NCBI GenBank assembly: GCA_009783705.1 | Contig: WRCX01000009.1 | Span: forward strand, 1 to 48,732 | Direction: 5' to 3' | From: Candidatus Bathycorpusculum hydrogenotrophicum | Lineage (GTDB): Archaea > Thermoproteota > Bathyarchaeia > Bathyarchaeales > Bathycorpusculaceae | Length of the DNA: 48,732 bases | In this document: piece after piece, positions 35,431 to 37,307 of the stretch | Position numbering within the stretch: the stretch's first letter is position 1 | How the letters are laid out: every line of letters begins with the position of its first letter | Program-made: the position numbers and the translations under genes | The notes under the pieces: model-generated | Told to the model about the DNA's origin: nothing | Databases searched by the model: none | What the model saw: the letters and a program-made list of their open reading frames with translations, nothing else

Positions 35431-35654
35431 AGTTTTGTGCTCCCTAAAACTCCGTTTTGCGGAATGCCATCCACTCAAGGAAGATGCACCATGTAATCTT
35501 TCTGTGAACCTAATTAATATTTCGCCAAAGAAAAACAGAGAAAGCTTTTGAGACCAGAGACCCTATCTGGGTTTTTTGCACCATCAGAACAACTAACCAC
35601 CTTTTTAGAATCGCGCTATCCTAAATGTTTTTAAGATGCCCAATCTTTGAGTCA

Positions 35655-35722
35655 GCCAATTGGCGGGTGAGTGAAGTCTCCCATCCGTTCCGCCAATAAA
35701 AATAAAACCCGGATCAGGGAGG
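35655..35722 (+). promoter_or_regulatory. structured leader of queT-queC, candidate SD-sequestering pseudoknot
   Basis: ATTGGCGG (35659-35666) and CCGCCAAT (35690-35697) form a perfect 8-bp stem. Its loop contains TCTCCC (35677-35682), which can pair with the ribosome site GGGAGG (35717-35722) through six pairs including one G-T. An A-rich link, TAAAAATAAAA, joins the two. The stem's 5' arm is also half of a 10-base palindrome, GCCAATTGGC (35655-35664), so an alternative pairing exists. This hairpin, A-rich tail and SD-pairing plan is that of preQ1 riboswitches, and the downstream gene is the preQ1/preQ0-type transporter queT. Sequence does not match a known class; function is inferred. Confidence 0.4.
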
Positions 35723-35731
35723 CAAATATAA

Positions 35732-36244
35732 TTGAAGATACAAACTAAAGATTTAGCAGTAATAGCAGTATATGGTGCCCTCTATGTGGCGCTGGCCGTT
35801 TTTTTTGAGCCTATATCTTATGGAGCCATTCAAGTTCGCGTGGCTAATGTGATGCTTGCGTCAGTGCCGCTTTTGGGCATAGCAGGGGTTTTTGGACAGG
35901 CCATGGGCGTTTTTGTTGCCAATTTGTACTCACAACTTGGCCCTATCGACCTGCTGAACACTATACCATCTTTGGCTATGTCTTTCATAGTTTTCTATGT
36001 CTATAAACGCACAAAAAATGATTACACAGTCATTGGAACCTGCATTGCCTATTCGGTGGTCTTGGGAGTGACAGTTGGGTGGATGCTCAACTATGTGTGG
36101 AACGCACCATTGCTAGCCACGATGGCATATGTTATGCTGGGAAACATCATAGCAAGTGTAGCTCTTGGATGGCCGGTGTTTATGGTTCTTAAGCGAATTG
36201 GCGTGTTTGAACAATGGTTTAACAGAGGCGAAAAATATGCGTGA
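35732..36244 (+). CDS. queT: QueT-type ECF transporter S component (queuosine/archaeosine precursor)
   Basis: A 170-residue membrane protein with about five or six helices, matching QueT (COG4708): the start KDLAVIAVYGALYVALAVFF, then YGAIQVRVANVMLASVPLLG, and a charged end. QueT binds queuosine precursors such as preQ1 or preQ0 for import through the ECF module. The TTG start has a strong GGGAGG site nine bases upstream, inside a structured leader. The gene overlaps queC by eight bases, so import and synthesis of the 7-deazaguanine precursor are made from one message; in archaea preQ0 is used for archaeosine in tRNA. Confidence 0.85.
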   Translation: MKIQTKDLAVIAVYGALYVALAVFFEPISYGAIQVRVANVMLASVPLLGIAGVFGQAMGVFVANLYSQLGPIDLLNTIPSLAMSFIVFYVYKRTKNDYTVIGTCIAYSVVLGVTVGWMLNYVWNAPLLATMAYVMLGNIIASVALGWPVFMVLKRIGVFEQWFNRGEKYA

Positions 36245-36902
36245 TAGTAAAAAGTGTGTGGTTGTGTTAAGTGGGGGTTTGGATTCGGCGGTTGTTGCGT
36301 ATTGGGCTAAAGCTCAGGGTTATCAAATCTATCCGTTGACCTTTAATTATGGTCAAATTGCACTCAAAGAAACTCTAGCCGCGCAAAAAATTGCGCAGGC
36401 GCTCAATACCACCACCAAAGTCATTGATCTCTCTGCGCTCAGAGATATCTATGGGGGTGCGTCGTCTTTGGTGAGCCGTGATATTCCCCTTACCTCAGAG
36501 TTTAGCGATTCTATCATCGTGCCTTTTCGTAATGCGATTTTTCTCTCTGCGGCTGTTGCATATGCTATAACGGTGGGTGCAGATCAGGTTTTCTATGGTG
36601 CGCAGGGTTCTGATGAGGCTTGTTATGCTGACTGCAGGCGTGAGTTCTATGAAGCTTTTGAGAAAGCCGCTCAACTGGGAACTGAGCGGAAAATTAGCAT
36701 AGAGGCCCCTTTTAGTAATAAACTCAAATCTGAGGTCATAGAGGAAGGCCGCAAGTTAGGTGTTCCGTTTGAGTTTACGTGGTCATGCTATCTTGATGGG
36801 GCCATACATTGCGGCAAATGTGAAGCTTGCGTTAATCGCAGAAAAGCCTTCACCGCAACAGGTACCGCTGACCCTACAAAATACAGAACAAGCACAGAAT
36901 AA
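36237..36902 (+). CDS. queC: 7-cyano-7-deazaguanine (preQ0) synthase QueC
   Basis: ATP-dependent enzyme turning 7-carboxy-7-deazaguanine into preQ0, the base later inserted into archaeal tRNA to make archaeosine. The start is ATG 36237 (MRDSKKCVVV), overlapping queT; a longer frame from 36165 is only queT in another frame. The PP-loop SGGLDSA (12-18), FNYGQ, the FRNAIFLSAAVAYA helix and the C-terminal zinc cysteines of SCYLDGAIHCGKCEACVNR are all present in 221 residues. The downstream gap carries a long inverted repeat. Confidence 0.93.
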   Translation: MRDSKKCVVVLSGGLDSAVVAYWAKAQGYQIYPLTFNYGQIALKETLAAQKIAQALNTTTKVIDLSALRDIYGGASSLVSRDIPLTSEFSDSIIVPFRNAIFLSAAVAYAITVGADQVFYGAQGSDEACYADCRREFYEAFEKAAQLGTERKISIEAPFSNKLKSEVIEEGRKLGVPFEFTWSCYLDGAIHCGKCEACVNRRKAFTATGTADPTKYRTSTE

Positions 36903-37025
36903 CAAGAATTAGCGCAAATATACTAAGTCAGTATAATACATCATAATTAGTACAATATACTATAGTAAGTACACCTATTTGCAAAAATATATTAACCCAC
37001 ATAGCAAATTAATACAGATATTGGA

Positions 37026-37096
37026 AATTTGGACAGAGCGGATTATTATAAATCGTCAGGTGATATGGTGAATTATGATGCCGCACTGTCCAAATT
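37026..37096. repeat. 71-base inverted repeat with 16-base arms
   Basis: The left arm AATTTGGACAGAGCGG (37026-37041) and right arm CCGCACTGTCCAAATT (37081-37096) are complementary over 16 bases with a single A-A mismatch, around a 39-base AT-rich centre. It lies in the 430-base gap between queC and the GGR gene. It may be a small structured RNA, a 3'-end hairpin of queT-queC or a miniature mobile element; no target-site duplication is evident. The rest of the gap is AT-rich and otherwise unremarkable. Confidence 0.6.
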
Positions 37097-37307
37097 GCCG
37101 ACTATAAAGACTCAATACTAACTAATAATTCTTTTGAAACCAACAACCAAACACACACGCAACCCAACAAAACACAATCAAACCAAAATAACCCACCAAT
37201 AACAACACCAACAATCAAAACACCAACCACTGTCAGAAATAACCAAGATAACAACAACAATTCACCACAAATGATCCGGCACAAAAAAACAGACAAGCAG
37301 TCTACGG

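Follow-up and report, generated by a model that had tools for sequence, protein, structure and literature searches.

Riboswitches are mostly known from bacteria. In SAM-II type riboswitches, a classic H-type pseudoknot buries the ribosome site upon ligand binding. An H-type pseudoknot is also formed by preQ1-I riboswitches (RF00522; types I–III), which stand before queT and other que genes; an A-rich loop L3 lies beside the first helix, P1 (about 5 bp), a second helix between loop and tail, P2 (about 4 bp), reaches the Shine-Dalgarno sequence, and UU and (A/U)C adjoin P1. According to a 2024 review of the preQ1 family, in which archaea are unmentioned, UC or AC stands right before the 3' strand of P1 and its C reads the ligand (PMC11625349). 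preQ1-II riboswitches (RF01054), found in the COG4708/queT leaders of Streptococcaceae and their relatives, control translation of queT by means of an HLout pseudoknot with four pairing regions and an extra P4 hairpin, the Shine-Dalgarno sequence lying wholly in the pseudoknot helix. preQ1-III riboswitches (RF02680), from queT leaders of Ruminococcaceae, are pseudoknots of about 100 nt with five pairing regions, in which the loop of P4 pairs with the Shine-Dalgarno sequence as P5.

Architecture of the queT leader and comparison with described classes

The window, i.e. the whole stretch of 48,732 nucleotides of Candidatus Bathycorpusculum hydrogenotrophicum analysed here, contains 5' of queT an H-type pseudoknot that was read off the sequence at 35659-35722. 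This leader, folding over the Shine-Dalgarno sequence, is almost certainly a conserved cis-regulatory RNA. Its parts and the genes behind it are as follows.

35628..35635, + strand: TATA box of the queT promoter (TTTTTAAG), at the pile-up of TTTWWW hexamers and AT-rich peak upstream of P1
35659..35666, + strand: 5' strand of helix P1 (ATTGGCGG), pairing with 35690-35697, with compensatory changes in relatives
35667..35677, + strand: loop L1 (GTGAGTGAAGT), starting with GTGAGT; GTGA in 124 of 141 distinct elements, the next two bases GT in 131; candidate contact to the ligand or to a groove
35678..35687, + strand: 5' strand of helix P2 (CTCCC-ATCCG; CTCCCATCCG), holding the anti-Shine-Dalgarno; strand-swap test and length covariation
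35688..35689, + strand: UU junction between P2 and P1; UU in 139 of 141 distinct elements
35690..35697, + strand: 3' strand of P1 (CCGCCAAT), pairing with its 5' strand
35698..35709, + strand: A-rich loop L3 (AAAAATAAAACC), with a conserved AAA[A/C/T]CCCGG tail
35710..35714, + strand: first part of the 3' strand of P2 (CGGAT), pairing with ATCCG at 35683-35687; CCG/CGG nearly invariant
35717..35722, + strand: second part of the 3' strand of P2, the Shine-Dalgarno GGGAGG, pairing with CTCCC at 35678-35682; TTG 9 nt further on
35732..36244, + strand: queT, ECF S-component for queuosine/archaeosine precursors (PF06177, E 2.1e-21)
36237..36902, + strand: queC, preQ0 synthase, overlapping queT (PF06508, E 1.1e-60; TIGR00364, E 3.9e-55)

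The perfect 8-bp hairpin and the A-rich tail had both been pointed out in the initial annotation and were read again as P1 and L3. The 6-base loop complement to the ribosome site that it described was also found, as five Watson-Crick pairs between CTCCC and GGGAG (35717-35721) extended by one U.G pair (35677/35722), but this is only half of P2; the pairing of ATCCG with CGGAT had been missed. P2 therefore comprises 10 bp with a 2-nt bulge, its 3' strand being CGGAT-CA-GGGAG (35710-35721), and the Shine-Dalgarno bases of queT, 9 nt before its TTG start, are buried within it. Across members the element measures about 62–75 nt and consists of two helices; P1, P2 and the AAA-rich L3 are present in all parsed elements, L3 spans 6–18 nt (6–13 nt in all members but one), and in almost all members the ribosome site is covered by P2. 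Pseudoknot-free folding of the single window sequence was unremarkable (z = −1.54) and thus uninformative, so that the case must rest on conservation.

Regarding the preQ1-I class, the element is alike in its H-type pseudoknot, in the A-rich L3 beside P1, in the position before queT and in the loop-to-tail helix that reaches the Shine-Dalgarno sequence. It differs in the lengths of P1 (7–8 bp versus about 5) and P2 (9–10 bp versus about 4), in the bases adjoining P1 (GUGA..UU versus UU..(A/U)C), in being archaeal and in having no Rfam match. In place of the UC or AC before the 3' strand of P1, UU is found in 139 of 141 elements; the C next to it is a P1 pair, replaced by G in 25 of 149 elements with compensation, and hence is not the specificity C of class I. 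With preQ1-II the element shares a Shine-Dalgarno sequence lying wholly in the pseudoknot helix and, probably, translational control of queT, and with preQ1-III the queT leader and the pseudoknot; the extra hairpins of these classes have no counterpart in its two helices and hairpin-free linker of 6–18 nt. The architecture of SAM-II type riboswitches is alike as well, while their ligand, genes and conserved bases differ. No Rfam 15 family, including RF00522, RF01054 and RF02680, matched the element at E ≤ 10. RF00522 was absent from all 21 genomes searched, with B. subtilis as positive control, a weak result given that the model is silent on the E. coli K-12 yhhQ leader too.

The initial annotation had suggested a possible preQ1-class-like riboswitch; the bases beside P1, the length of P2, the lack of an extra hairpin and the lack of an Rfam match do not support placing the leader in a known preQ1 class. 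A diverged member of class I, II or III would explain the same downstream gene, queT, and the H-type pseudoknot with its A-rich L3 and buried Shine-Dalgarno sequence. We nevertheless consider this very improbable, because neither the Rfam models nor the near-invariant UU, the C that covaries as a P1 pair and the 9–10 bp P2 fit class I, and the P4 and P5 hairpins of classes II and III do not fit into an L3 of 6–18 nt. The element probably works like a preQ1 riboswitch but belongs to no described class.

A different leader of about 45 nt, GGTAG-TTTCCGTATATAAC-CTACC-TTAAAAAACCCGGA, was observed before a diverged queT in three congeneric genomes (L027, G005:C131:62529-62563, − strand; L030, G013:C8:16013-16046, + strand; L244, G007:C2:547215-547248, + strand). 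It has a 5-bp P1 followed by UU, AC before the 3' strand of P1, an A-rich tail and a CCG/CGG helix between loop and tail. This is the set of features expected of a genuine preQ1-I riboswitch, yet RF00522 gives it no score. In one of the three genomes, G007, this leader and the new element both occur, ahead of two queT genes.

Covariation and promoter

A total of 149 elements were parsed, 141 of them distinct. In P1, 124 elements have G-C and 25 have C-G as the innermost pair, the third pair occurs as GC, AT, GT, CG and TA (133, 5, 3, 2 and 2 elements, respectively), and the fourth as GC in 148 and AT in 1. When column pairs were scored against a null in which each column's changes are scattered over a tree, the innermost P1 pair ranked first among all column pairs (its E value being below resolution) and the third P1 pair came third (E about 0.2). 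No P2 pair was significant in this column-wise test, in which most P2 positions were too invariant to score. Since P2 is nearly invariant, its strands were exchanged between sequences as a test: strands of the same sequence gave a mean of −11.48 kcal/mol against −10.58 kcal/mol for swaps, a value that none of 20,000 permutations reached (z −6.9), in a test that is conservative in one respect because the swapped partners are themselves similar. The two strands also covary in length, CTCC plus one base going with GGGAG and CTCC alone with HGGAG (74 + 33 versus 11 + 7, Fisher p 3e-14), although relatedness can inflate this figure as well as that of the strand swaps, neither test fully modelling phylogeny. 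At least 9 of the 11 exceptions have CTTCC, whose pairing with GGGAG is maintained by one U.G. Telling changes of P2 in single cases were CTCCU/AGGAG (L127, L151), CTCCG/CGGAG (L068) and UUUCCGAC/GUCGGAAA (L065). The compensatory changes in P1 and the preference of P2 for its own strands over every swap run counter to the absence of compensatory changes that the initial annotation had named as a refuting outcome, and together with the structure they uphold its claim of a pseudoknotted leader hiding the ribosome site before archaeal queT-queC.

An in-loop hairpin, GTGGG/CCCAC, was considered as a conserved alternative fold and rejected: it does not covary (z −0.4) and is missing in members with short loops. 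It may act as an anti-sequestering fold in some members.

With the ribosome site hidden by P2 in nearly all members, one could also imagine a fixed pseudoknot that sets the level of queT translation, or an RNA thermometer that adjusts it to temperature, independently of a ligand. For a thermometer pairing is needed, not the near-invariant unpaired GUGA, UU and AAA(N)CCCGG, and the restriction to genes of the preQ0 pathway would have no explanation, so that we rate this reading as improbable as a diverged preQ1 riboswitch.

In 146 aligned upstream regions, TTTWWW hexamers cluster at −34/−33 from the P1 core, with an AT fraction of 0.82 at the peak against about 0.57 around it. Judging from the position of this TATA box and the usual archaeal TATA-to-start spacing, the queT-queC transcript probably starts at or just before P1, roughly at 35655-35660, and its leader would be little more than the element. 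The prediction thus probably places the start upstream of the hairpin and not inside it, whereas a start downstream had been named in the initial annotation as what would speak against its proposal.

The 10-base palindrome described there as a competing fold is present at 35655-35664 (GCCAATTGGC); it is kept in only 3 of 141 distinct elements, and was therefore dropped from the model and rejected as a competing or operator element. That the conserved stretch is a DNA operator for a transcription factor, for which this palindrome would be the recognition site, has a negligible probability in our estimate: besides the rarity of the palindrome, the conservation lies 3' of the TATA box and tracks base pairing in the RNA, the covariation with the Shine-Dalgarno sequence included.

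Distribution and downstream genes

The element was found in Bathyarchaeia, Methanomethylicia and further Thermoproteota. It is carried by 27 queT leaders of congeneric relatives, which were gathered via queT and from which a covariance model (R1) was built with P1 as the sole structure included; loci added later, and most of those examined for their downstream genes, were retrieved using only the RNA. R1 matched the window element with E = 1.2e-22 in its own genome, typically gave one match per genome, and had matches in 125 of the 163 genomes from the order, 186 of the 257 from the class and 83 of 398 in a sample of the phylum. A broader model (R2) matched in 15 of the 40 genomes from the class to which genome G259 belongs and in 8 of 150 from that of genome G535 (the poorest match among these 8 at E = 0.006). 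When GTDB r220 contigs (84,980 species) were scanned for the exact pattern, 61 contigs were retrieved, all archaeal by record title and mostly of Bathyarchaeota and Methanomethylicota, along with Gagatemarchaeum and one labelled Asgard; the exact pattern was absent from viral contigs. Six low-scoring covariance-model matches (L073, L076, L078, L080, L086 and L089; E 1e-5 to 1e-2) were discarded as chance because no que gene lies downstream.

An element with queT was observed on one contig whose title reads Asgard group archaeon LC30 (L134), which reflects either transfer or misbinning. Variant elements with GGTGG at the loop start and CACTG in P2 were seen before queT-like genes in family f78 (L278-L281), three of them with a CGCGG/CCGCG P1.

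The element is restricted to genes for preQ0 synthesis and uptake. Behind the window element these are queT and queC, and queT is the first gene in 130 of 148 parsed elements; in a separate Pfam scan, 40 of 43 first proteins matched PF06177. Regarding the other first genes, the element is followed by queE and then queC in Gagatemarchaeum (L170), by a queE-like gene, assigned by sequence resemblance only, in G600 (L275), and by queC and then queT in G108 (L219). An unnamed membrane protein of about 230 aa, here called TM2, comes first in twelve loci of family f10, one of them ended by the contig end, and in G535, where queC lies downstream (L079; the TM2 loci are L105, L108, L079, L184-L187, L191-L194 and L197). 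These exceptions, queE-queC, queC-queT and TM2, strengthen the case: what the element marks are importers and biosynthetic enzymes belonging to a single pathway, that of 7-deazaguanines.

TM2 matched no family in Pfam or NCBIfam. An AlphaFold model from 4 sequences (pLDDT 57) was replaced by one from 13 sequences (pLDDT 80.5), whose fourteen best PDB matches were ECF S-components only, such as RibU, the biotin S-component, PanT structures and FolT (probability 0.75–1.0, E only 0.04–0.2, the match at rank 2 being titled merely 'a transporter'). With the element in front, queC downstream in G535 and this predicted fold, TM2 is a candidate new 7-deazaguanine importer. Homologues of TM2 in two other genomes (L253, L254) have no element in front.

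The same gene set bears on the possibility that the pseudoknot is the site of a protein repressor, e.g. TgtA or another regulator, which would stabilise the fold that hides the Shine-Dalgarno sequence with no metabolite involved directly. Protein-bound mRNA leaders are known in archaea, and contacts to a protein could explain the conservation in L1, UU and L3 just as well. A compact H-type pseudoknot with an A-rich loop, on transporter and biosynthesis genes, fits a metabolite-sensing leader instead; the genes include two unrelated membrane protein families as well as queE, and no linked regulator gene was noticed in an unsystematic look at linkage. We consequently regard a protein repressor as unlikely, if the least unlikely of the alternatives.

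Proposed ligand and mechanism

Translational riboswitches in general show a leader of conserved structure whose pairing takes in the Shine-Dalgarno sequence of genes from a single pathway, as is seen here. We consider it about 77% probable that the leader belongs to an archaeal class of translational riboswitches not described before, with preQ0 as the most likely ligand, where we infer ligand binding, the identity of the ligand, the off-switch direction and the binding site. The genome of the window encodes the archaeosine transglycosylase TgtA (TIGR00432, 565.7 bits), the substrate of which is preQ0. QueF, the enzyme that makes preQ1, was absent from 21 of 21 genomes by a search that was positive in 8 control bacteria. 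Because TgtA is present and QueF absent, preQ0 is most likely the ligand rather than preQ1, a preference drawn from gene content only; imported preQ1 or archaeosine base are possible alternatives. QueT elsewhere has been reported to carry preQ1 (PMC11625349), which counts against the preference for preQ0.

In the proposed mechanism, P1 would fold first after transcription has started at or just before it. A plentiful 7-deazaguanine, most likely preQ0, would then bind where P1 and P2 stack, in a candidate pocket to which the GUGA conserved in L1, the UU between P2 and P1, and the A-rich L3 would contribute. Binding would lock the 10-bp P2, so that the Shine-Dalgarno sequence is hidden and translation of QueT and QueC (elsewhere QueE) is turned off, whereas without ligand P2 would open and leave the ribosome site accessible. 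The length of P2 (mean duplex energy −11.5 kcal/mol) counts against a ligand switch, as such a helix might form even without ligand.

The element is most likely a new archaeal riboswitch with a 7-deazaguanine as its putative ligand. No prior report of it, or of an archaeal riboswitch of the queuosine/archaeosine pathway, was found in the literature searched, which covered few subscription journals and no preprints. The wider proposal has, in our estimate, even odds: a fourth, archaea-only class of 7-deazaguanine riboswitches, tuned to preQ0 and not preQ1, that would control uptake and synthesis of the archaeosine precursor across Bathyarchaeia, Methanomethylicia and further Thermoproteota such as Gagatemarchaeum, and would mark an undescribed family of ECF S-components as a second preQ0 importer. 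If so, the supply of archaeosine would be under RNA control in mostly uncultured archaea, a fourth fold recognising 7-deazaguanines would be added, possibly the first natural preQ0-selective one, and a marker would be at hand for assigning function to unnamed transporters. The riboswitch hypothesis lends itself to direct testing with an RNA of about 75 nt and small-molecule ligands that are already known. An isolate exists of Methanosuratincola petrocarbonis (PMC12244365), and a MAG of this species carries the element (L178).

Apart from the leader, an inverted repeat was observed 3' of queC in the window (37023-37099; 19-nt arms, 89% complementary, 39-nt loop), which has a single copy in its own genome. 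In a relative, G004, part of this repeat is found again on the contig that carries queT-queC (G004:C1:134621-134663).
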